Assembly (NCBI RefSeq): GCF_002999235.1
Contig: NZ_CP027236.1
Span: 1,736,001-1,800,000 of the forward strand
From: Actinomyces sp. oral taxon 897
GTDB taxonomy: Bacteria; Actinomycetota; Actinomycetes; Actinomycetales; Actinomycetaceae
DNA length: 64,000 bases
Direction of reading: 5' to 3'
Made by a program: the position numbers and the translations under genes. Shown here one piece after another: positions 1-16,820 of the stretch. Numbering within the stretch: position 1 is the first letter of the stretch; each line of letters starts with the position of its first letter. The notes below the pieces were generated by a model that was given only the letters and a program-made list of their open reading frames with translations, made no database searches and was not told the origin of the DNA.

Positions 1-2
1 CG

Positions 3-773
3 GGCTGCCCGGAGGAGGGGCGTGCGGCAGCCAGTGCCCACGCCGCCATTACGAGCCTGGGGCGGGCCATGGAGGAGCTGGCCGCCTTCGCGCCCTACGC
101 CCAGCAGTTCGCCCAGTCCCTGGTAGGGGCCACCGGTTCCGGCGGGGGTGCCGGCTCCGGAGGCATCGGCTCCGGCGGGGCCACAACCACCGGCGGCACT
201 GGACTCAGTGGCGGCATCAGCCCCGGCGAGGCCACAGCCGCCGGAGGTACCGGACTCAGTGGGAGCACTGGACTCAGCGGGGCCACCAGCTCCGGCGGAG
301 CCACAACCACCGGAGGCACCGGACTCAGTGGGGGTGCCGGCGCTCCCGTGGGGCCGCCGGGAGACGGGAGCCCGCCCCGGAGCACGGCGGCCTCGGTCCT
401 GGCCGAACGTGGCCTGACAATGGTCGCCGTTGACAGCATGGTCGTTGACGACCCGGTCGACGTCGGCAACCACGGCCGCGGCCCGGATGACTACTCCTGG
501 CTGGTCAGCACCTGGCACAGCCGCATACTCCCGGGCCTCGACGCCGGAATGACCCGGGACGACTTCGCCCGCCTCGACCACGAGGGATCTGCCCCGGAGG
601 ACCGCAGGCTCGCCGCCGCGTACGACGTGTTCCTGGGCGACAGGAGCATGGCCGGCGAGGAGCTGCCCGACGGTGGCGTGGGCATAAGCGGCGGACGCCA
701 CAGGGCCGAGGCCGCGCGGAGCCTGGGTATCACCCACCTGCCGGTGAGGCTCCGCCGCCCGGGGAGGCGTTAG
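3..773 (+). CDS. Gly/Ser/Thr-rich protein with C-terminal ParB-like motif (5'-truncated)
   Basis: The reading frame is open to the left edge of the window, so the true start is probably upstream; the first in-window ATG is at 69. The N-terminal part reads as an amphipathic helix rich in Ala, resembling the helical proteins of WXG100/type VII type (weak resemblance). A low-complexity linker follows, with repeated GGTGLSGG and SGGATTTGG units (about residues 25–90 from the ATG). The C-terminal ~120 residues look folded and end with GISGGRHRAEAARSLGI and HLPVRL, which resembles the core of ParB-like nuclease/sulfiredoxin folds. No function is assigned. It converges on the lipoprotein gene at 923–2050. 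A modular secreted or polymorphic effector is possible but unproven. Confidence 0.55.
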   Translation, partial: GCPEEGRAAASAHAAITSLGRAMEELAAFAPYAQQFAQSLVGATGSGGGAGSGGIGSGGATTTGGTGLSGGISPGEATAAGGTGLSGSTGLSGATSSGGATTTGGTGLSGGAGAPVGPPGDGSPPRSTAASVLAERGLTMVAVDSMVVDDPVDVGNHGRGPDDYSWLVSTWHSRILPGLDAGMTRDDFARLDHEGSAPEDRRLAAAYDVFLGDRSMAGEELPDGGVGISGGRHRAEAARSLGITHLPVRLRRPGRR

Positions 774-2380: not shown

Positions 2381-3937
2381 TTACACGCTCCCGCCCATAA
2401 AGACGCGGCGGCTGGGGGTGGAGCCCACCCCCGTCTCGGTGCGCTCCACCCGTCCGGCGGGGACGGCCCGGGTGTGCCCCCACTGCCGGATCGCGGCCAC
2501 CTCCTCGGGGTTGGACCGGGAGAAGGGGACGACGGCGCGGAAGTGCTGGGTGATCGTCAGGTCGTCGGGCAGGACGCGGGTCTGCCGGGTGTACATGATC
2601 TCCGCGACCTCGTTGACCACGGCGTCAATGTCCGAGCCCGCGAAGCCGTCGGTGAGCATGACCAGGTCTCGCAGCAGGTCCAGCGTCAGCTCGCACTGGG
2701 TGTAACGGCGGAAGCACAGGCGCAGGATCTCCTCACGCTCCTCCTCGGTGGGCAGGTCCACGAAGAAGACGGCGTCGAACCGTCCCTTGCGCAGCAGCTC
2801 CGGCGGGAGGGTGGAGACGTCGTTGGACGTCGCCACGAGGAAGACCTTGGAGGTGGACTCCTGCATCCAGAACAGGAACTGGCCAATGAGCCGACGGGTC
2901 ACCGAGTTGTCCCCCGACCCTGAGGCGAGCCCCTTCTCGATCTCGTCAATCCACAGGACGCAGGGAGCGGCCCGGTCCGCCGTGGCCAGGGCCTCGCGCA
3001 GGCGCGACTCGGACTCCCCCACGTACATGCCCATAATCGCGGCCATGTCCAGACGGTAGAGCGGCAGCTCCCACTCCTGGGCGATCGCCTTGGCGGACAG
3101 CGACTTCCCGCAGCCGGGGACGCCGCAGAGCAGCACACCCTTGGGGGGACGCACGCCCCAGCCGGTCAGGTCCCCGGTCATGAGACGCTGCTTGCCGGTC
3201 AGCCACTCCTTGAGGTTCTCCAGGCCGCCGACCTTGTAGTCCTCCTGAAGACGCACCCTCTCCAGACCGGCCAGGGCCCCGAAGATACGGTCCTTGAACT
3301 GGCTCAGCTCGGCCAGGTCCTCGTTACGCACCTCCTCCTTGGCCAGGAGGGTGGAGATGACGTTAATGGCCTCCCCCTCCGTCACCCCGCTGAGGATCTC
3401 GGCGGCACGGTGGATCTCCAGGTCCTGCCACTCGATCGGGATGCTCAGGCGGTAGGGCTCGATCGTGGAGCTGACCACCTCGTAGAGCTCCTCGACGGTG
3501 GGCACGTCCAGCGTCGTGGTCATTCCCAGGCGGCTCAGCCCCGACCAGACCGGGCGGTCGCCAATGAGGATGATTGCGCACGAGTTGCGTTCGGCCAGGT
3601 GGATCAGCTGGGAGAAGTGCCGGGACGTCGGTGAGTCGTTCTCCAGGTCCTCCAGGTCGGAGAAGACGAAGTTGACATTCGCCCGGGACCTGAAGGTCTG
3701 CTGGGCCTGGTCCAGGGCGGCCACCAGGGAGTAGTCGTCCGTCACGGCCGAGTCCGAGAGGACCTCCCGCAGCCCCTCCGTGCGCGTGTAGGAGAAGAAG
3801 GGCATCTGCCTGAAGTCATTGGCCATCTCGTTAATAATGGCCAGCGCCCGCGTGGGCTCCACCGTCCTCATGACAATGACAGGAACACGCGCCTTGAGGA
3901 ACCTGCGGACCTCTTCGGCGGTCTGTCGTCCGTCCAT
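2381..3937 (-). CDS. Ycf46-like AAA+ ATPase
   Basis: This 518-residue protein has an N-terminal, probably degenerate, RecA-like segment (about 1–230: mixed alpha/beta, including IILIGDRPVW) and a canonical AAA+ module. Walker A is GVPGCGKS with Lys278; Walker B is WIDEIEKG with Asp331/Glu332; FLVATSNDVSTLPPELLRKG is a sensor-1/arginine-finger region. This two-part layout matches the Ycf46 group of AAA ATPases, which is known in cyanobacteria and scattered bacteria but has no settled biochemical role. It is the last gene of the minus-strand operon that starts at 12380. The ATG at 3937 has an AAGGAG seven bases upstream, overlapping the stop of the preceding gene. It may remodel or energise a complex made by the other operon products (inference). 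Confidence 0.8.
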   Translation of the reverse strand: MDGRQTAEEVRRFLKARVPVIVMRTVEPTRALAIINEMANDFRQMPFFSYTRTEGLREVLSDSAVTDDYSLVAALDQAQQTFRSRANVNFVFSDLEDLENDSPTSRHFSQLIHLAERNSCAIILIGDRPVWSGLSRLGMTTTLDVPTVEELYEVVSSTIEPYRLSIPIEWQDLEIHRAAEILSGVTEGEAINVISTLLAKEEVRNEDLAELSQFKDRIFGALAGLERVRLQEDYKVGGLENLKEWLTGKQRLMTGDLTGWGVRPPKGVLLCGVPGCGKSLSAKAIAQEWELPLYRLDMAAIMGMYVGESESRLREALATADRAAPCVLWIDEIEKGLASGSGDNSVTRRLIGQFLFWMQESTSKVFLVATSNDVSTLPPELLRKGRFDAVFFVDLPTEEEREEILRLCFRRYTQCELTLDLLRDLVMLTDGFAGSDIDAVVNEVAEIMYTRQTRVLPDDLTITQHFRAVVPFSRSNPEEVAAIRQWGHTRAVPAGRVERTETGVGSTPSRRVFMGGSV

Positions 3938-3949
3938 ATCTGAAACTCC

Positions 3950-4549
3950 TTAGTGGGATCGCCGCTTGAACAGGCTGGACCAGCGGGAGGCACCGGCAGA
4001 GGGGGCCGACTGCGGTGGCTCCTGGCTGACCGGCGGGGCGCTGGCGGCGTCGGCCATCCTGATAATCGCCGAGCCGTCGACGTAGCCGTCGTCAAAGACG
4101 CGCATGAGCGAGTTCTCCCTCACCGCGCGCGTGAGCTGGTCATTTCCGGAGGCGATGTTCTCGACCTGCTTCTGAAGGTTGGTGACCTCGTCGCGCATGA
4201 GCGTCATGAGCTCGGATCTGGTCTTCGGGGGCAGCCCCGGGTGCTGGCACAGCCGGAGCCGGGGAAGGAGCCGACGCCGGGCCCCCACGAGGGCGAGCTG
4301 GGCGGCGTGGAGGTCACTGTTGCCCACGGCTGCCTGCAGGTCACGCTGGAAGCTGTCAACCCAGCTCGACATCATGGTGCGGACCGCGGTCATGAGGTGG
4401 TCATTGAACCGCCTGGAGGTTGCGGCGCTGAAGGACTCGGCACTCAGGGCAGGGAGCGCGTCCAGGCTGGTGGAGGGGTCCCGGGACCAGGCCTTGAGGG
4501 TCGTCACCCAGATCTTGTACGCGCTGGCGCCGGTAGCGGGTCCGTTCAC
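3950..4549 (-). CDS. Hypothetical helical protein, coupled to upstream gene
   Basis: About 199 residues. GTG at 4549 is chosen because it overlaps the stop of the upstream gene as GTGA, a signature of translational coupling; the longer in-frame ATG at 4603 would overlap far into that gene. The sequence is mostly helix-forming with a likely coiled coil (about 115–150, LMTLMRDEVTNLQKQVENI). The C-terminus is a disordered Pro/Ser region ending in basic SLFKRRSH. There is no signal peptide or membrane segment. No family was recognised. The operon position suggests it works with the FtsK-like and AAA+ ATPases. Confidence 0.65.
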   Translation of the reverse strand: MNGPATGASAYKIWVTTLKAWSRDPSTSLDALPALSAESFSAATSRRFNDHLMTAVRTMMSSWVDSFQRDLQAAVGNSDLHAAQLALVGARRRLLPRLRLCQHPGLPPKTRSELMTLMRDEVTNLQKQVENIASGNDQLTRAVRENSLMRVFDDGYVDGSAIIRMADAASAPPVSQEPPQSAPSAGASRWSSLFKRRSH

Positions 4550-6099
4550 GACGCACGCCCCCGCGGACGGGTAAGGATCTCGTGGGGCGGCAGCGGGGAC
4601 CACGAGGGCAGGTTCCCGGCGACCTTGGTCCCGGACGACAGGACCGGCCCTCCCGTCCTGTCGCGCGTGCGGGCCAGCAGGTCCTTACGGTCCAGGACCG
4701 TGTCCGGCTTGGCGGGCTTGGGGGGCAGGAAGCGCGGCACGCGCCGCGGGCGACGCACCAGGGGCGTCGTCGACGCCGCGGGCGACGCGGGGGCACCGGG
4801 GACGGCTGGCGCTGCGGGCGCACCCGGGGCCGCGGGCGCACCCGGGGAAGGAGCCGGAGGTACCGGGACCGATGAGGCGGCGGGCACTGTCGGCGTCGGG
4901 GGCGTGCCAGGCGCAGGCACCGGAGGCACGGGCACGGAGGCCGCTGGCACCACGGGCACCGCCCCGGTGGGTGCCGACGGGGCAGAGACGGGCGGGGCCG
5001 ACGGGGCAGAGACGGCGGGAGCCGAGGCCGCGGAGACCGGGAACGCACCAGAGGCAGGCACCGGCGGCGCGGGCACCGGCCCAGCGGGCGCAGGCGCGGA
5101 GGCCGCTGGCACCACGGGCACCGCCCCGGTGGGTGCCGACGGGGCAGAGACGGGCGGGGCCGACGGGGCAGAGACGGCGGGAGCCGAGGCCGCGGAGACC
5201 GGGAACGCACCAGAGGCAGGCACCGGCGGCGCGGGCACCGGCCCAGCGGGCGCAGGCGCAGGCGTCGGAGGCGCAGGCACCGGCGGCACGGGCACCGGCG
5301 CAGCAGGAGCAGCGGGCACCGAGGCCGCCGGCGGCGCGGGCACCGGCCCAGCCGGCACAGGAGGCGGCGGCACGGGCGGCATACCCGTGGGCAGCACAAC
5401 AGTAGGGGCCGAGGAGCCCGAGGCCGCAGGCACCGAGGAGGCACCAGGGGCGGACGCCACCGGAGCCTGAACCCCGGAAGGCGCAGGCACCGGAGGCGCG
5501 GGCACCGGCGCAGCAGGAGCAGCGGGAGCAGCAGGCACCGAGGCCGCCGGGGGCGCTGGCACCGGCCCAGCTGGCATAGGGGGCGGCGGCACGGGTGGCA
5601 TACCCGTGGGCAGCACGACAGTAGGGGCCGAGGCGGCCGAGGACGCAGGCACCGGGGAGGCACCAGGGGCGGACGCCACCGGAGCCTGGGCCCCGGAAGA
5701 CGCGGGCGTCGGGGGCGCAGGCACCGGCGGCGTCGGCACGCCCGCAGCAGGCACCGGCGGCGTCGGCACCGGCGCAGCGGGTGCAGCGGGTGCAGCGGGC
5801 ACGGAGGCCGCCGTGACCAGGGGCGCGGCAGGCGAGGAGGCCGAGGCCGCGGTGCCCGACGACGGCAGCGAGGTCGGCACGGCGTCCACCAGGTCCCCGG
5901 TGGCGGAGTCCGCCGAGGACGTGGACCCCGGGGCCACCGGCACCGCCGTGGCCGGGATAGGGGGCGCCGAGGGGACGGGCACCGAGCCCGCGGAGTCCGC
6001 CGAGGGCGCGGAGGGGACAGGCGTGGAGGCCGCCGCGGGGGAGACCGCGGAGGAGGTGGGTACGTCGGCAGGGGTGGTGCCCTGAGGCGTGTCGGTCAT
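4546..6099 (-). CDS. Long Pro/Ala/Ser/Val-rich disordered protein with internal duplications
   Basis: About 517 residues. The ATG at 6099 follows an AAGGAGAACTGACC ribosome site and lies 2 bases after the upstream stop, so the longer frame to 6138 is rejected. Residues 1 to about 440 are almost entirely Pro, Ala, Val, Ser and Thr with reiterated VPAPPVPA-like units. The last ~75 residues (basic, PRRVPRFLPPKPAK then DRKDLLARTRDRTGG) look more ordered. At DNA level there is a 162-bp near-perfect tandem duplication (4937–5098 and 5099–5259) and a 219-bp imperfect one (from about 5321 and 5540). Both are in frame (54 and 73 codons). It may act as an extended linker or scaffold (inference). No known family. 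Confidence 0.7.
   Translation of the reverse strand: MTDTPQGTTPADVPTSSAVSPAAASTPVPSAPSADSAGSVPVPSAPPIPATAVPVAPGSTSSADSATGDLVDAVPTSLPSSGTAASASSPAAPLVTAASVPAAPAAPAAPVPTPPVPAAGVPTPPVPAPPTPASSGAQAPVASAPGASPVPASSAASAPTVVLPTGMPPVPPPPMPAGPVPAPPAASVPAAPAAPAAPVPAPPVPAPSGVQAPVASAPGASSVPAASGSSAPTVVLPTGMPPVPPPPVPAGPVPAPPAASVPAAPAAPVPVPPVPAPPTPAPAPAGPVPAPPVPASGAFPVSAASAPAVSAPSAPPVSAPSAPTGAVPVVPAASAPAPAGPVPAPPVPASGAFPVSAASAPAVSAPSAPPVSAPSAPTGAVPVVPAASVPVPPVPAPGTPPTPTVPAASSVPVPPAPSPGAPAAPGAPAAPAVPGAPASPAASTTPLVRRPRRVPRFLPPKPAKPDTVLDRKDLLARTRDRTGGPVLSSGTKVAGNLPSWSPLPPHEILTRPRGRAS
4937..5259. repeat. 162-bp tandem duplication inside coding sequence
   Basis: Two almost identical copies (about 4937–5098 and 5099–5259) encode 54-residue Pro/Ala/Ser-rich units. 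The near-identity suggests a recent event. A second, older 219-bp duplication of the same gene starts at about 5321 and 5540. Confidence 0.85.
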
Positions 6100-6101
6100 G
6101 G

Positions 6102-7850
6102 TCAGTTCTCCTTCTTGCTGTTGTCCCCGTCGGGCCACACGTCAATCACACGCAGGAGCTCGTCCTCGTCCGCGTCCCGCTCCTCGTAGAGCATCTCCAG
6201 GTCCTCGAACTCCGCGCGCGCGTCCTGGAGCATGGTGAAGGACTTCATGTAGGCCGCCTCCTTGACCGCGACAGCCTTATTGACCCGGTCGCGCGCCTGC
6301 TTCTGCATCTGCATAATCACGAAGGCCGCCACGCCCCCGGCCACGAGCATGACGAGGACCCCGGCGACCCGGTTCACGAGAAGGAACAGGAGGGAGACGC
6401 CGAGGGCGACGGCAATGGGCAGGACCATCTGCGAGTTCTTGAACGACACCTGGTGGATGTAGTCGGCGAAGGTCTGCTCCCACACCTGGCGCAGCTGCGT
6501 GGCCATGACGTTCTCATCGACCTCCGTCGAGGTGGAGAAACCGGGGAACCCCATGTTCTGCGCGGTGGCGTGGTGGTCCGGGGCGAGGTTGAGCGGCACG
6601 TTGGACACGTGCTCCATGCGGTACTTCTTGGTGTAGGCCCTGACCGCCGTACGGAAGTCCTCCTTGCCCGCGCCGATGGCCACCTGCTGGGTGCGTACCG
6701 ACACCCCCAGGGAGTCGGGGGCGATCGCCGCGTTGGTCTGGAGCGTCACCGCGTCCACCCGCTCGTCGAGCACGGAGATCTCCTGGTCCGCCTTGACCCG
6801 GGCCCGGTCCAGGTCGCCGCCGGTGTCGATAATGGCGTCCTGGTAGGCGACCTCACGGGTCAGGGGCAGCTCCTCGTCGTCGTACTCCGTGACCAGCTGG
6901 ATGAGCAGGTCGTCCAGGAGGCTGGAGATGACCCCGCCGGAGGTGAACTCGGAGTCCTTAATGGCCTCGTACTTCCTCGCGCAGGCACTGAGCGCGGTCA
7001 CCGCCTCGGCCTGGGCCTTGACCCGGGCAAAGCTCGGCGGCGGGGTCAGGCGGCGCAGCATCTTCGCCTCGGCGGGGTCCAGGACGCCCTGGCACAGGCC
7101 GATCTCCTGCTGCCACCTGCGCACCTGCTCGGCCACGACCTTGTCGTCCGTGCGCAGGTGGGTGGTCCAGTCACTCAGCTGGGCGCGCACCAGGGCCGTG
7201 CCGTGGGGGCCGAACTGCCCCTGGGAGGCGGCCTCCAGGATGACCGCGAACTCACGGGTCAGCGCCTGCGGGTCGCAGGCGGCCAGGTAGTGGCGCAGCC
7301 ACCGCGCCGACTCGGCCTCCCGGCCCTGGCGGCGCAGGACCAGGGCGAAGAAGAGCGCGGTCTTGGCCTGGCTGCGGGCGTAGGCCTCCGTCACGGAGCG
7401 CTTGCAGACCTCCTCGTCGTCCCGCGACCAGGCGGCCAGCGCCACCAGGGCCGGGGCGAGCCAGTAGCGGGGCGTCTGGATCATGAGCTCCTCGCTGACC
7501 TGGCTGGCCGTGGACTCCGAGACGTTGCCCACGTCAAAGGCCTGGAGCAGCCCGACGCTGGAGCGGCGCACCACCTTGTAGTGGCCGAACTCGCGCTCCA
7601 GGTCGGCCTTGAGGGTGCCGACCTTGGTCTCGGCCCGCTGGACGTTGGCGGTGCGCTCGGCCTGCTCCACGTACTCCTCGAACCTGCGCCGCAGGTCGGC
7701 CAGCTCCTCCTGGGTGCTGCTCAGCTTGCCGTCAATGACCTGGATATTGTCACTGACCCTTTCAAGGTCGTTGCCAATGAGCGAGACATTGTCGCCGACA
7801 TGTTCAATAGCGTTGACAATGGGACTTAGGTCAATATATCCGTCCGCCAT
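6102..7850 (-). CDS. Coiled-coil membrane protein of the FtsK/AAA+ operon
   Basis: 582 residues. The N-terminus (about 15–90: heptad-like INDLERVSDNIQVIDGKL, then LADLRRRFEEYVEQAERT) is a predicted coiled coil. A long helical, soluble middle section follows. Two closely spaced hydrophobic segments at about 473–513 (LPIAVALGVSLLFLLV and GVLVMLVAGGVAAFVIM) are predicted to cross the membrane as a hairpin. The C-terminal ~65 residues are highly charged, mostly acidic and coiled coil. There is no signal peptide. The ATG at 7850 follows AAAGGA. It ends 2 bases before the Pro/Ala-rich gene. A membrane scaffold for the ATPases is plausible (inference); no family recognised. Confidence 0.7.
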   Translation of the reverse strand: MADGYIDLSPIVNAIEHVGDNVSLIGNDLERVSDNIQVIDGKLSSTQEELADLRRRFEEYVEQAERTANVQRAETKVGTLKADLEREFGHYKVVRRSSVGLLQAFDVGNVSESTASQVSEELMIQTPRYWLAPALVALAAWSRDDEEVCKRSVTEAYARSQAKTALFFALVLRRQGREAESARWLRHYLAACDPQALTREFAVILEAASQGQFGPHGTALVRAQLSDWTTHLRTDDKVVAEQVRRWQQEIGLCQGVLDPAEAKMLRRLTPPPSFARVKAQAEAVTALSACARKYEAIKDSEFTSGGVISSLLDDLLIQLVTEYDDEELPLTREVAYQDAIIDTGGDLDRARVKADQEISVLDERVDAVTLQTNAAIAPDSLGVSVRTQQVAIGAGKEDFRTAVRAYTKKYRMEHVSNVPLNLAPDHHATAQNMGFPGFSTSTEVDENVMATQLRQVWEQTFADYIHQVSFKNSQMVLPIAVALGVSLLFLLVNRVAGVLVMLVAGGVAAFVIMQMQKQARDRVNKAVAVKEAAYMKSFTMLQDARAEFEDLEMLYEERDADEDELLRVIDVWPDGDNSKKEN

Positions 7851-7892
7851 GAGGTGTCCTTTCAGTGGGTGGGGCAGGGAGGGTGTGGAGTA

Positions 7893-8372
7893 TCAGGAGA
7901 CGGAGCCGTCAGCGAGGACGGGGATGATATCGCCGTCGGAGTAGACCTCGACGTACTCGTAGACCGGCGACTGGGCCAGGGTACGAGCGGCGTCAAAGGG
8001 CGGGGGGACAATGTCCGTGGGACGGTAGTGCTCCAGGATGTGGCCGACCACGGTCAGGCGGTGGTCGACGTAGGGCGGCCCCAGGTGGCACCGGGCGAAC
8101 AGGCCCAGGAGCACCCCGCCCATCCGCTCGGTGTAGGCGTTATCGATCCACTCGGTGAGCTCGGCGCGGTAGGCGGCGTCCTGCGTCAGGTCCAGGTTCC
8201 GCACGGCCTGTAGGAGCTCGCCCGGGCGGGGCTCACGGCGACGACGCCGCTCCAGGGCGGAGGGCGGGCGCTGGAGCGTCTGGGCGGGGACGGTGTCGGG
8301 GGCCAGGCTGACCGGCTGGAGGCTGACCGGCTGGGGACCGACCTGGATCAGACGACGTTTCTGGGGGCTCAC
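7893..8372 (-). CDS. Small hypothetical protein of the FtsK/AAA+ operon
   Basis: 159 residues from a GTG at 8372 that follows GAGAGAG. The N-terminal ~55 residues are basic and disordered, with a QPVSL repeat and an ERRRRREPRP tract. The C-terminal ~100 residues look globular and helical, ending in an acidic beta-rich tail (YEYVEVYSDGDIIPV). There is no signal or membrane segment. It lies 42 bp before the coiled-coil membrane protein gene and 25 bp after the tail-anchored gene. Function not recognised. Confidence 0.65.
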   Translation of the reverse strand: MSPQKRRLIQVGPQPVSLQPVSLAPDTVPAQTLQRPPSALERRRRREPRPGELLQAVRNLDLTQDAAYRAELTEWIDNAYTERMGGVLLGLFARCHLGPPYVDHRLTVVGHILEHYRPTDIVPPPFDAARTLAQSPVYEYVEVYSDGDIIPVLADGSVS

Positions 8373-8397
8373 GGTGACTCTCTCGTAGCAGGTGGTG

Positions 8398-8955
8398 TCA
8401 CGCGAACGCGATTATCCCGCACACCACGGCAATGACCAGGACGACGGCAAGGACAAGTTTTAGGGTCAGGGAGGCCGGTGCCGGGGCGGGCTCGGCGCGC
8501 GGTGCGGGCGGGACCGGCTCAGGCGGGGCCGGCGCCGGTGAGAGCGGCGCGGGCGGGGCCGTGGGAGGGGCGGGCGGTGCCGGAGCCGCAGGGACCTGGG
8601 CGGTATCGACCCCGCGCCAGAGCTCCTGGGCCGCGTTCAGGTCCGCCCGCAGGCCGCGCACGGCACGCCCGCACCCGGCCAGGTCCCTGGGCGGGTCAGC
8701 CGGGACACCAGGCGCCTCGGCGGCCTCGGCCACCGGCAGGCCGTGGGAGCGCGCCAGGGTCTGGGCCGAGCGGGACAGGTGGGTGGTCTCCGTGAGGATC
8801 CGGTCCCACTCCTGCTCGTGCTCCCGGCGGTCCATGGCAGCGTGGCGCAGGTCGTCACGCCCGTAGTCACCGGCCTGATCCCGTGCCCGGGCGGCACGCT
8901 CGGCCGCGCTGCCCAGCACCTCCAGCGCGTCGAGGTAGTCCTGGTAGCCGCTCAT
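8398..8955 (-). CDS. Tail-anchored coiled-coil protein
   Basis: 185 residues. An N-terminal helical, charged domain (about 1–115) is followed by a Pro/Ala-rich linker (about 118–160). A single C-terminal hydrophobic helix (about 163–185, LKLVLAVVLVIAVVCGIIAF) ends the protein, which is typical of a tail-anchored membrane protein facing the cytoplasm. The ATG at 8955 overlaps the stop of the FtsK-like gene (ATGA) and has a GGAGGAC site, so the two are translationally coupled. A membrane docking partner for the FtsK-like ATPase is a reasonable inference. Confidence 0.7.
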   Translation of the reverse strand: MSGYQDYLDALEVLGSAAERAARARDQAGDYGRDDLRHAAMDRREHEQEWDRILTETTHLSRSAQTLARSHGLPVAEAAEAPGVPADPPRDLAGCGRAVRGLRADLNAAQELWRGVDTAQVPAAPAPPAPPTAPPAPLSPAPAPPEPVPPAPRAEPAPAPASLTLKLVLAVVLVIAVVCGIIAFA

Positions 8956-11900
8956 GCCACGTCCTCCTGCCCGCCGGGGCGCTGGGTACCGACCGGGGAG
9001 GGCTGCCCGGCACCCTGGTCCGGTCCCCCGGCGTCCTGGCCGGCACCCGGGCCCGGTCCTCGGGCGCCCTGTCCGACGAGCTCCGCCACCACCGAGGCGT
9101 CCGGTGCCGCCAGGGGCACCAGGACCTGCATCTCGGCGTCACTGGCGTGGTCCAGCAGCCCGACCCGCGGCCCGCGGCCCAGGGGCCTGGTGTGCGGGCC
9201 GGTGAGCTCGCGCAGGTCGGCCAGGCCCAGACGCAGCAGGACCGTGGCGCGGACCCCGGGACGCTGGTACTGGCCCAGGTCACGTCCCATGGCGCGCAGG
9301 GTCGTCCACCACCCGAGGGCGAACACCTGCTGGAGGCCGCCGTCGGTGAACACCCGCTGGAGCACCGAGGCCGGTGTCACCGGCTCCGGCGCCAGCCCGA
9401 GGGCGCCCGCCCCCGTGCCCTCCCAGCCGCCGGCGCCCAGGTCGATCCCGGCCGCCAGGGCGTCCCAGTCCGGCTCCGTGGTGTCCGCCGGCCCCAGGGG
9501 GTCCACCGCGGGCGACGGCGCCGCCAGGTCCCCGCTCCCCGGTGCCGTAGTCCCCGGCCCCAGTGCTGCGGTCCCCGGCCCCGGCGCGGCGCCTGAGGCC
9601 CCCACCGCCGAGTCCGCCAGCGAGGCCCCCGCCGCCGAGTCCGCGGGCGCCACGGTTCCCACCGCGGTCCCCACCGAGTCCGCCGGCGCGGTGGCGGGCG
9701 CCTGGTAGGGGCGGCTCATACCGACCACCCGCTGGAGGCCCACGCCCACCACGAGCATCGGGTGGGGCACGCCGTCGGCCAGGAGCGGGGCGACCTCCTC
9801 CACCAGCACCCGGGCGACATCGGTGCGCCCCACCACGCGCACGCCGCGTCCGGCCTGCCGCCAGGCGTCCACGGCGGCCTCCAGGCGCCCGGGGAGCTGG
9901 TCGAGCCCGGTCAGGACCAGCAGGGATGCCTCCTGCGGCGTGGTGGCCAGCGCCGTCAGGACCGCCGAGCCCATGACGGCCCCGGCCAGCTCCTCCCCCG
10001 AGCCGACCAGCACCACACCCTGGTCGACGTCGGTGTCCAGCTCCAGGACGCTCGGGGCGTCACTGACCGCCACGGGGCGCCCCAGCCACAGCCTGGGCGC
10101 GCTCGGCGTGCCGGTCCCCCGGAGGCGCTCCAGGTGCGCCGTCGGCCAGCGCGCCTCCTCGGCGCCCAGGAACACCAGGGGAGGCGCGGCGTGCCCGCGG
10201 GACCACAGGCCCTGCTGGAGGACGGCCATGACCTCGCTCTGGGCCCAGGCGGCGGTGCCCCGCACGTTGGATCCCGCCGGGTCGTGGCCGAAGTTGCGGT
10301 TGAGGACCACCTCACCGCGGTAGGTCAGCTCGGCGGCGGCGCGGTTGTGCTGGGACAGGATGGCCTCGGACTCCTGGGCCGTGTTCTTCAGGGACATACG
10401 CAGGGGGAACTGGGCGAAGATGGAGTCGCCCTTGGCGCGCAGGCCCGATATCCCCGAGACCGTCTGGGAGGCCAGGAGCAGGTGGATGCCGTAGGCGCGC
10501 CCCTGCTTGGCAATGGTCTCGGTGATCGCCACCGCCTGGTCGACCAGGTCGTCGTCGCCCTCGAACATGACGTGGAACTCGTCGATGATGACCAGCATGC
10601 GGGGCATGACCTCACCGGTGGTCCGGCGGTAGGCGACGATGGAGCTGGCCCCGGCGTCCTTGAACAGCTCTGAGCGCCGCTCAAGCTCCTGGCGCACGTA
10701 GTCCAGGACCGCGACGCCGAACTCCTGGTCGGACTCCAGAGAGAGCACCGAGACGTGGGGCAGCCAGTTCTGCCCGTCCTCGTCCGGGGCGAAGCGCGCG
10801 AACTCCAGGCCGCGCTTGTAGTCCAGCAGGAGCATGGTGAGCTCCTCGGGCGGGTACCTCACCGCGAGGGAGTAGACAATGTCCAGCAGGAGGTTGGACT
10901 TCCCCTGCCCCACGGCGCCGCCAATGAGGAGGTTGGGGTGCGGTGGGTTCTCGGTGCGCAGGGAGAGCACCAGCGGCTCGCGCCCGACCCGCCCGACCAC
11001 CGCCTCCAGGCTGTCGCGCGAGGAGCCCGTCCAGGGACGCTCCATGTCGTCGCCAATGAGCTCCACCAGGGGGATCCTGGGTCCGGTGACGCTGCGGCTG
11101 CGCTGCACGGCCTGGCGGATGACGTGCTCGACGGCGTCCAGGGCGGGGGCGCCGTCGTGGGCGACGCGGACGCTACCCGGCAGGCCGGGGACCTGCCAGC
11201 AGCCGTCCTGGGCGCACAGGGCCAGCCAGGGGCCCGGCGGCACCTGCGGGGGGCCGTAGGCGGGGTCGGACTGGACCACCAGGTGCAGGCCCGATGCCGG
11301 GCTCATGGCGGCCACCTGCTTCAGGACCCGGCTCAGCTGGTCGTCCACGCAGTAGGGGTGGTCCAGGAGCACCACGACGGTCAGGACGCCACTGGCCTCG
11401 CCCTCCCGGCGCCACAGGTCCAGCAGGTCCCTGGCACCGGCCACGGCAATGCGCTCGGCGTTCTGCGTGGTGGCCTCCAGGGCCTGTCGCAGGGCGGCGA
11501 CCAGGGCCCCGGGATCGGCCACGGGGGGCGGGAAGGACGTCCCGGAGGCGGCCCGCAGCGGGCTGAGGGGCCCGACGACGCCGGTGACGCGGGGGTCGAA
11601 GACGAGGACACGCAGGTGCTTGAGGGGGACCTGCCCGATGACGCGGGTCAGGGCGGAGAGCACCAGCTCCTGGGCCTGGCGGGTGGAGCCGGAGAGGTGC
11701 CAGTGGCTGCGGCACAGGAACGGGGCCAGGGCCGCCACCGACTCCGCGGTCGCCTCACCCACGGCCCCGTCTCGGGCCGGGCCGGGCGAGCGGGCCGGAC
11801 CAGCCGGGCTGGGCGAGACGGCCGGGCCAGCCGTGCCAGACGTGCCGGCCGGGGAGCCCTGGCCGGGGAGCCGGGCCGTACCCACCCGCAGGAACCGGGC

Positions 11901-12380
11901 CGGGTCGGCCTGCGTGCTGGCGTCGGCCTGCGTGCTGGCGTCCAGGGGGCTGCCCGCCACACCGGGGGCCAGCTCGGTGACCAGGGAGCGCAGGGCGGTG
12001 CTCGCGGCCTGCCACTCGGCCTGCGCCGCCTGGTCGGCCTGGGCGCGGCGCGCTCGCCGCTCGCCCTCAATACGCTGCTGGAGGGCGGTGGCCTGGGCGT
12101 CCAGGCCCTCCAGGTCCCGGGCGCGCAGGTCGGCGGCGGCGTCGTGCACGACCTGGGCACGGCGCAGGACGTCCTGGGTGCGCGCCTGGGCGTCCTGGCG
12201 CATCTGGGCCAGGCGGGTGGCGCTGAGCGCGGGCGCCGCCTGCGCCGGGGGCTGCACGGGGCCCGGAGGTGCCGTGCGCGGGGCACCGGGGGGCGGGGTG
12301 GGAGCCCCCTGGGGCAGGGGCGCGTGGGAGACCGGCGTCCCGGTGACAATGACACGGCGTTGGGAGGATCTCGGGCTCAT
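8952..12380 (-). CDS. FtsK/SpoIIIE-like ATPase, multi-domain
   Basis: 1142 residues, first gene of the operon. In order: a short Pro-rich head; a coiled coil (about 55–140); a linker; a RecA-like segment without Walker motifs (about 225–410); a canonical FtsK/SpoIIIE motor; and a C-terminal segment resembling a second degenerate RecA fold (about 770–900, with GVVLVGSGEELAG where a P-loop would be). The motor has Walker A GAVGQGKS (488–495, Lys494), a Walker B LVIIDEF with Asp600/Glu601, and LLLASQTVSG. The tail is Pro/Ala/Gly-rich, then helical. Multiple RecA-like units in one chain resemble EssC/EccC secretion ATPases more than the DNA pump FtsK, which has one motor plus a gamma domain; no gamma domain is seen. 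ATG 12380 follows AAGG. DNA or protein translocation are both possible. Confidence 0.8.
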   Translation of the reverse strand: MSPRSSQRRVIVTGTPVSHAPLPQGAPTPPPGAPRTAPPGPVQPPAQAAPALSATRLAQMRQDAQARTQDVLRRAQVVHDAAADLRARDLEGLDAQATALQQRIEGERRARRAQADQAAQAEWQAASTALRSLVTELAPGVAGSPLDASTQADASTQADPARFLRVGTARLPGQGSPAGTSGTAGPAVSPSPAGPARSPGPARDGAVGEATAESVAALAPFLCRSHWHLSGSTRQAQELVLSALTRVIGQVPLKHLRVLVFDPRVTGVVGPLSPLRAASGTSFPPPVADPGALVAALRQALEATTQNAERIAVAGARDLLDLWRREGEASGVLTVVVLLDHPYCVDDQLSRVLKQVAAMSPASGLHLVVQSDPAYGPPQVPPGPWLALCAQDGCWQVPGLPGSVRVAHDGAPALDAVEHVIRQAVQRSRSVTGPRIPLVELIGDDMERPWTGSSRDSLEAVVGRVGREPLVLSLRTENPPHPNLLIGGAVGQGKSNLLLDIVYSLAVRYPPEELTMLLLDYKRGLEFARFAPDEDGQNWLPHVSVLSLESDQEFGVAVLDYVRQELERRSELFKDAGASSIVAYRRTTGEVMPRMLVIIDEFHVMFEGDDDLVDQAVAITETIAKQGRAYGIHLLLASQTVSGISGLRAKGDSIFAQFPLRMSLKNTAQESEAILSQHNRAAAELTYRGEVVLNRNFGHDPAGSNVRGTAAWAQSEVMAVLQQGLWSRGHAAPPLVFLGAEEARWPTAHLERLRGTGTPSAPRLWLGRPVAVSDAPSVLELDTDVDQGVVLVGSGEELAGAVMGSAVLTALATTPQEASLLVLTGLDQLPGRLEAAVDAWRQAGRGVRVVGRTDVARVLVEEVAPLLADGVPHPMLVVGVGLQRVVGMSRPYQAPATAPADSVGTAVGTVAPADSAAGASLADSAVGASGAAPGPGTAALGPGTTAPGSGDLAAPSPAVDPLGPADTTEPDWDALAAGIDLGAGGWEGTGAGALGLAPEPVTPASVLQRVFTDGGLQQVFALGWWTTLRAMGRDLGQYQRPGVRATVLLRLGLADLRELTGPHTRPLGRGPRVGLLDHASDAEMQVLVPLAAPDASVVAELVGQGARGPGPGAGQDAGGPDQGAGQPSPVGTQRPGGQEDVA

Positions 12381-12800: not shown

Positions 12801-16820
<4,020 letters not shown>

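Follow-up and report, generated by a model that had tools for sequence, protein, structure and literature searches.

A seven-gene operon of Actinomyces combining an FtsK-family motor with an AAA+ membrane platform: a candidate type-VII-like protein exporter

Introduction

The present analysis deals with a seven-gene operon read on the minus strand, from 12380 to 2381, of a 64,000-nucleotide stretch of the genome of Actinomyces sp. oral taxon 897 (assembly GCF_002999235.1, contig NZ_CP027236.1, positions 1,736,001 to 1,800,000), the whole of which is called here the window. The operon is built from two modules: a motor module, which comprises an FtsK-superfamily ATPase and a tail-anchored protein, and a platform, which comprises a 159-residue protein, a TPR-like membrane protein of 582 residues, a 199-residue protein and a Ycf46-like AAA+ ATPase. 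Gene content, gene order, the link between the motor and a trio of small hairpin proteins encoded nearby, the homology within this trio and a short tail motif common to several of the products can all be read directly from the loci compared. From these features we infer a type-VII-like exporter of proteins, for which an AAA+ membrane platform would serve as the docking base, a reading to which a probability of about 0.5 is assigned.

The operon and its products

All seven genes of the operon were confirmed. The first one (8952-12380) encodes the motor, a protein of 1142 residues (Pfam FtsK_SpoIIIE, 4.5e-21) in which an N-terminal tail with an RR-hydrophobic motif is followed by a coiled coil and three NTPase-like regions distinguished by eye, the sole Walker A occupying the middle region; hydropathy reveals no membrane segment. 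The second gene (8398-8955) encodes a helical protein of 185 residues anchored by a single membrane stretch at its extreme C-terminus (residues 156-185, by hydropathy). The 159-residue platform protein (7893-8372) is modelled as an N-terminal tail, which bears an RR-hydrophobic motif, followed by a compact alpha/beta domain, for which no usable structural match was retrieved; the small proteins described as helical in an earlier note made from the sequence alone would thus include at least one that is not purely so. The 582-residue platform protein (6102-7850), of TPR-like and coiled-coil character, displays one membrane stretch (472-516, by hydropathy), and its structure model predicts a long N-terminal helix, then an alpha-solenoid with TPR proteins as its nearest match and lastly the membrane region, the match being weak and at the level of the fold. 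It is followed by a Pro/Ala-rich linker protein of 517 residues (4546-6099), conserved in its last ~70 residues, by the 199-residue helical platform protein (3950-4549) and by the AAA+ ATPase of 518 residues (2381-3937; Pfam AAA, 6.4e-33), which has a C-terminal RR-hydrophobic tail. Apart from the motor and the AAA+ ATPase, no product of the operon reaches the cut-off of a Pfam family. The name Ycf46-like was given by the earlier note and by us as a presumption, family searches having returned no such name.

The tight packing of the genes described in the earlier note is exact: an ATGA overlap at 8952-8955, a GTGA overlap at 4546-4549 and spacings of 2 bases (6102/6099) and 12 bases (3950/3937), the other junctions measuring 25 and 42 bases. 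NCBIfam models for type VII and HerA-like proteins match the motor far under their cut-offs, and the PADLOC matches to the operon concern shared ATPase domains only.

Conservation of the platform and the motor module

The 582-residue protein occurs in 3 of 49 genomes of the same genus, namely the window's own genome (G000), G021 and G041, and in none of the 50 further genomes examined; given its distribution within the genus, the locus is accessory. A scan of one genome per species yielded 47 named loci, of which 46 are labelled Actinobacteria and distributed among Actinomyces, Rhodococcus, Salinibacterium, Mycobacterium, Demequina, Nesterenkonia, Microbacterium, another member of the Microbacteriaceae, Propionibacteriaceae, Acidimicrobiia, Micromonospora, many Streptomyces and an unplaced actinomycete. 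One locus belongs to a metagenome-assembled genome (MAG) labelled Spirochaetia, possibly mis-binned, and no relative turned up in viral contigs.

The 47 named loci, the window and the loci L007, L019 and L021 were compared as a set of 51, using profiles on six-frame open reading frames (ORFs). The 582-residue protein is present at 50 of them, largely by construction since it served as bait for most, the 159-residue protein at 50, the 199/217-residue protein at 49 and the AAA+ ATPase at 45, its absence from six loci being due to contigs that end early. Both components of the motor module are found at 11 of the 51 loci, the tail-anchored protein occurring at 11/11 loci with the motor and at 0/40 without it. 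At each of the eleven the motor gene shares the strand of the platform genes and is located upstream of them; between them these loci represent seven or more named genera or higher groups. The linker-protein profile matches at 11/11 motor loci and 21/40 others, a figure that may be an overcount for such a Pro-rich protein. The recurrence of this set of genes in other genera is more than chance. The earlier note would have given up its idea of a single membrane machine had the genes not been conserved together, and they do prove to be so conserved; the idea needs correction in one respect, as the operon consists of two modules, each of which also occurs without the other.

The motor-less platforms keep other company. 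Of these 40 loci, 27 contain caspase genes and 30 contain CHAT genes, neither kind being present at any of the 11 motor loci; the motor-less set consists mostly of Streptomyces, so that the 40 loci are not independent events. At L019 the neighbours include Peptidase_C14 (5.1e-17), CHAT (1.1e-49) and RES (1.6e-18) genes, and at L036 a CAP12-type TIR gene lies upstream (2.1e-7).

In Actinomyces israelii (L022:4607-5266, the same locus as L004) the platform is kept and the motor gene is reduced to a 95-residue product joining the tagged N-terminus of the motor to a membrane anchor. The trio profiles find no match at this locus, nor does the genome, G041, hold the first trio protein at E<=1e-3. 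Elsewhere, a gene of the 159-residue family adjoins a transposase-like gene recognised by eye (L018:10201-10692), no other platform gene being recognised in that stretch, which is perhaps a decayed platform.

The motor family

Fourteen motors, eleven from platform loci and three from compact operons described below, each possess exactly one Walker A. In the tree they form one clade (support 100/100) to which none of the 13 EccC and 7 FtsK rows belongs; the FtsK rows, so named by length and score, make up a clade of their own, also at 100/100, and platform motors and compact motors are not clearly divided from each other (54/39). Searched with the motor profile, 11 EssC-like or unassigned ATPases score 74-102 bits, the EccC rows 41-88 and the FtsK rows 36-65. 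The best PDB matches of the window's motor are 4nh0 (7.7e-25), which we take to be an EccC, EccC5 (9e-23) and YukB (3.4e-19), compared with 5.7e-5 for a DNA translocase FtsK.

The compact operons, found in G000, G001 and G005, consist of a TPR protein, a motor of 761-781 residues and two hairpin genes of ~85 residues, with no platform gene in the stretch (G000:C1:1457897-1461915, that is L136:5898-9916; L137:5709-9809; L138:5865-9959). Their TPR protein exceeds the Pfam cut-off in L137 and L138 and is weakly recognised (0.0013) in L136. Through its compact operon, G000, the genome of the window, possesses the export-like module twice.

Of 394 genomes of the class, 51 hold the motor family at E<=1e-45, and twelve of these motors were studied in their context, eleven over 18-19 kb and that of L179 over 4.4 kb. 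Together with the three compact operons they make up 15 platform-free loci, at 13 of which an ORF of 84-91 residues lies beside the motor or a few genes away (by eye). At 9 of the 15, such an ORF is matched by the trio profile with an E value below 1e-3, a six-frame recount again giving 9/15 with L172 replacing L173, and in L174 and L177 the best Pfam family of this ORF is WXG100 (1.6e-5 and 7.4e-5, just under the cut-off). Chaperone genes also accompany platform-free motors, Hsp70 in L178 (1.9e-109) and DnaJ/TPR in L169 (2.2e-6). As far as sequences can tell, hairpin partners and chaperone neighbours fit a protein-handling motor better than a DNA pump, and of the two cargoes named in the earlier note, DNA or protein, it is the protein that the evidence favours.

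At L170:10955-11407, a gene for a 150-residue protein with a hydrophobic C-terminus separates a platform-free motor from its hairpin partner. This points to the motor module as the one to which the tail-anchored protein belongs, although the profile of the latter has no match there.

The hairpin trio

The trio found near the motor loci consists of a protein of ~86 residues, another of ~100 residues and a third one with a helical start of ~95 residues followed by a variable C-terminus. In the case of the window, the first two genes (86 and 108 residues) lie just upstream of it, at G000:C1:1735273-1735533 and 1735541-1735867, and the third, of 300 codons in total, starts upstream of the window and occupies its positions 1..773 on the plus strand (ORF 3-773). 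Its product combines a helical N-terminal domain, a Gly-rich linker and a C-terminal part without family match. The earlier note had proposed this product as a substrate or partner of the operon, and its membership of a trio seen at motor loci only lends support to the proposal.

According to the profiles, the trio occurs at 10/11 platform loci with the motor and 0/40 without; the eleventh motor locus, L038, is a contig of 7,979 bases ending inside the AAA+ gene. The absence from motor-less loci is not an edge effect, since 30 of the 32 motor-less loci with a clustered AAA+ gene extend at least 3 kb past that gene. The three members are homologous to each other, with profile-profile probabilities of 95.4, 95.5 and 90.7%, controls made of helical proteins from the same loci reaching 23% at most. 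When the first trio protein was searched in 99 relatives, five genomes matched: G000 and G021 (both at the motor locus), G048, and more weakly G001 and G005; G000 holds a second, weaker match away from the motor locus. It was this search that led to the compact operons.

The third protein ranges from a bare hairpin to a 341-codon ORF at L034, the product of which carries the Gln_amidase domain, papain-fold toxin 1 (PF15644, 1.6e-6). An ORF of 105 codons directly follows the third gene of L034, and in L032 and L037 the third gene has ORFs of 75 and 111 codons behind it; by analogy, these small ORFs are placed as immunity genes would be. The distance from the end of the third gene to the convergent AAA+ gene is 8 bases at L026, and that to a convergent lipoprotein gene is 149 bases in the window, which leaves no or little room for an immunity ORF.

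An orphan trio occurs in another Actinomyces genome, G048 (L135:7885-9414), with a second member seen by eye and a third member of 309 residues whose C-terminal part is unrecognised; no motor or platform gene lies within the 19.5 kb read.

The RR-hydrophobic tail

A strict motif, defined by two arginines and two hydrophobic residues, and a looser form were counted in the tails of the proteins, with shuffled tails as a baseline. The strict motif is present in the last 25 residues of 42/42 full-length AAA+ proteins (shuffle mean 0.62) and of 26/34 members of the 199/217-residue family (0.26), in the N-terminal tail of 30/38 members of the 159-residue family (1.66) and, for 5/11 platform motors, within residues 1-70 (0.28), the loose form being found in 11/11 of the latter (0.57). 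The strict motif is lacking from both ends of the 582-residue protein (0/42 at each) and from the C-termini of CHAT proteins (0/28), and the other genes of the loci stay at chance level (3/469 C-termini, 19/469 N-termini).

The loose motif distinguishes the 11/11 platform motors from the platform-free motors, of which only 2/33 possess it (Fisher p 1e-8, a value that overstates independence as both sets include related sequences). One of these 33 motors belongs to the window's own genome, and no platform-protein profile matches around any of them, the stretches covered being about 18-19 kb long for 14 motors and 3 to 4.4 kb long for the others. Among distant relatives of the AAA+ ATPase, a Gly-Arg-hydrophobic variant ends 8 of 10 tails (L017 is devoid of it and the sequence of L008 stops short of its end), which suggests that the tail is old within the AAA+ family.

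Proposed mechanism and alternative explanations

According to the exporter reading, the tail-anchored protein would hold the FtsK-family motor at the membrane, where the motor would recognise a complex of hairpin proteins and drive it across, the third hairpin protein being able to carry a toxin-like C-terminal domain. The platform would be built from the TPR-like membrane protein together with the 159-residue, 199-residue and Pro/Ala-rich proteins, and the AAA+ ATPase might remodel or reset it. The shared RR-hydrophobic tail would unite the motor, the AAA+ ATPase and the members of the 159- and 199-residue families through a common receptor, and both ATPases would work within one physical machine, with outward transport as the presumed direction.

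A broader idea, put forward tentatively, is that these loci could represent an undescribed class of effector deployment in Actinobacteria, in which an AAA+/TPR platform takes either a type-VII-like export motor with its hairpins, some of them toxin-bearing, or a caspase/CHAT module, assembly relying on an RR-hydrophobic tag that spread from the C-terminus of the AAA+ protein. If all this is true, toxin-like proteins destined for export and effectors of the caspase type depend on a common base in bacteria, and genomes record the exchange of one for the other; the tail motif becomes a simple rule for membership of the complex; and part of an AAA+ family acquires a function, the literature under the name Ycf46 being mainly plastid genome papers among those listed.

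Several points weigh against the exporter. There is no obvious channel, the 582-residue protein crossing the membrane with one stretch, and the platform stands without the motor at 40 of the 51 loci; at L007:6618-11136 it even lacks the 582-residue protein and lies behind two HTH-DUF2690 proteins. A Pfam toxin domain is recognised in only 1 of 10 third trio proteins (for the window, the 3' part was scanned), and that of A. dentalis is a bare hairpin of 96 residues. The trio gives no significant match to the WXG100 proteins expected of type VII partners: PF06013 matches 4 of 8 trio hairpins scanned with E values of 0.0042, 0.013, 0.11 and 0.25, all under the cut-off; hhalign probabilities against WXG100 are 33.6% for the first member and 0.7 and 0.6% for the others, compared with a control maximum of 23%; and the genome-wide search gave no WXG100 match at the motor loci at E<=1e-3. 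A relationship of the first trio protein to WXG100 is thus hinted at by sequence comparison, and apparently does not extend to the other two. The tree does not resolve the order of the motor, EccC and FtsK clades, and the EccC and FtsK bit ranges overlap, the FtsK row L085 (64.7 bits) falling inside the EccC range. Finally, the 199-residue protein of the window lacks the motif that most of its relatives possess, and the motif was defined after the tails had been inspected.

The most serious competitor of the exporter, doubtful as it seems to us, is a hub of intracellular conflict or cell death, in which a threat perceived at the membrane by the AAA+/TPR platform would lead to the intracellular release of interchangeable effectors, without any export; these effectors would be caspase and CHAT proteins in Streptomyces, and the FtsK ATPase with its hairpins in Actinomyces and others. 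The frequency of caspase and CHAT genes beside motor-less platforms and the RES and TIR genes of L019 and L036 speak for such a hub, as does the presence of FtsK domains among the effectors of AAA+-based conflict systems in the accessible parts of PMC7159879 and PMC8195603. It accounts less well for the layout of the trio, in which small partners, an occasional toxin C-terminus and a following small ORF correspond to the arrangement of exported toxins, and for the existence of related motors with hairpins in the absence of a platform. It is improbable that the two modules are mere neighbours with separate jobs, brought together by shared regulation only: each of them does occur without the other, but neither the invariable same-strand position of the motor upstream of the platform in so many genera nor the concentration of the loose motif in platform motors would be expected. 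A DNA translocase or segregation system appears more improbable still, since the FtsK superfamily of the motor and the overlapping EccC and FtsK scores are offset by the position of FtsK as, on the whole, the lowest-scoring group and apart in the tree, by the lack of any relaxase, recombinase or partition family among the operon products in Pfam, and by a constant companion that is the hairpin trio. Least probable of all is an ordinary member of one of the described type VII subtypes, T7SSa to T7SSj, for despite the PDB matches of the motor, the small helical partners and the LXG-like effector layout, the distribution of EccB and WXG100 and the subtype compositions, given in the next but one section, argue against it.

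Neighbouring genes

The operon starts 420 bases downstream of the RNA polymerase beta'-subunit gene (12801-16820, named by eye). Behind the AAA+ gene, positions 923-2050 on the minus strand encode a putative lipoprotein of the LppP/LprE family (PF14041, 1.2e-25; DUF6636 at 0.0089 is below the cut-off), a homologue of which occupies the same position in L004; it is possibly an accessory of the operon. A secreted protein or lipoprotein gene also follows the AAA+ gene at L027:14198-15283, its product resembling that of the window at the C-terminal end (by eye). A sigma-70-like site at 2213-2241 on the plus strand, agreeing at 11/12 positions, points to the 3' end of the AAA+ gene on the opposite strand; over 11 kb the promoter scan recognised 3 such sites, for 0.2 expected.

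Comparison with known systems

A literature search retrieved neither a description of the motor and platform combination nor a known system with counterparts for all of its members, as the earlier note also had it, though its coverage left out most subscription journals and included Garrett et al. 2024 (PMC11217815) in part. Among single candidates, the IetAS anti-phage system was rejected, as the AAA+ protein scores 68.4 bits against an IetA cut-off of 510 and its PADLOC match (8.4e-25) results from the shared AAA domain; so was the chromosomal FtsK DNA translocase, the 14 motors lying outside the FtsK clade.

The type VII secretion system (T7SS) offers the nearest parallel. In the accessible part of PMC11217815, its subtypes extend from T7SSa to T7SSj, some of them with an extra AAA+ ATPase (EccA, TsfV), and the operon shares with them an FtsK-superfamily motor with several NTPase-like domains, small helical hairpins and LXG-like effectors with partner genes. 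It differs by a motor that belongs to a clade of its own, has a single Walker A and lacks a membrane segment, by hairpins that are not recognised as WXG100, and by a platform of 159-residue, TPR-like, 199-residue and AAA+ proteins of which that part makes no mention; the compositions given there for T7SSa to T7SSj do not match that of the operon. EccB (PF05108) has no match at the locus; at E<=1e-3 it is missing in 8 of the 11 genomes with the motor, and it occurs elsewhere in the genome in G000, G801 and G805. Three of the eight, G800, G803 and G804, also lack WXG100 at this threshold, several of the motor-bearing genomes being MAGs of unstated completeness; the system therefore seems independent of a resident ESX apparatus. 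In the window's genome, EccB and EccC exceed their family cut-offs at places other than the operon. Pfam names no EccD, EccE, MycP, EssA, EssB, EsaA or EsaB among the operon products, no dedicated profile search having been made for them. To file the operon as a T7SS would be wrong on present evidence, because EccB is missing from the locus and the WXG100 and EccC counterparts are no more than possible ones; it is T7SS-like in its motor, its hairpin partners and its effector layout.

The "mobile versions of T7SS" of other phyla, as described in the accessible part of Zhang et al. 2012 (PMC3482391, Table 1 footnote 6), possess a three-domain motor, of which the middle domain alone is active, beside small helical proteins. 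The motors of the operon family resemble these YueA-like motors in the single Walker A of the middle domain (14/14, the three domains being counted by eye), and those of the platform loci differ in their association with an AAA+ platform, which that part of the source does not mention.

A related AAA+ gene also occurs in L009, L012, L013, L014, L016 and L017, clustered with DUF2997 and radical-SAM proteins (named by Pfam in L009 and by clustering in the rest) and, in 5 of the 6, with a membrane HHH protein. The AAA+ protein of these operons can be aligned over its full length with that of the platform, at 33-34% identity for the three aligned, and mostly ends with the Gly-Arg-hydrophobic tail. 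The partner genes are different, neither a motor nor a TPR-like membrane protein being encoded in the stretches covered, and Pfam finds no DUF2997 or radical-SAM partner among the window products.

The AAA+-based conflict systems of multicellular bacteria are built, in the accessible parts of Kaur et al. 2020 (PMC7159879) and 2021 (PMC8195603), around MoxR-vWA cores, the FtsK domains among their effectors being predicted inactive in the former and both active and inactive in the latter. Unlike them, the operon shows no vWA match at E<=1 in Pfam, and the words "Ycf46", "EccC" and "type VII" are missing from the accessible text of PMC7159879. What the two have in common, as far as those parts of the sources go, is the principle of an AAA+ core combined with swappable effectors, caspase and FtsK included.

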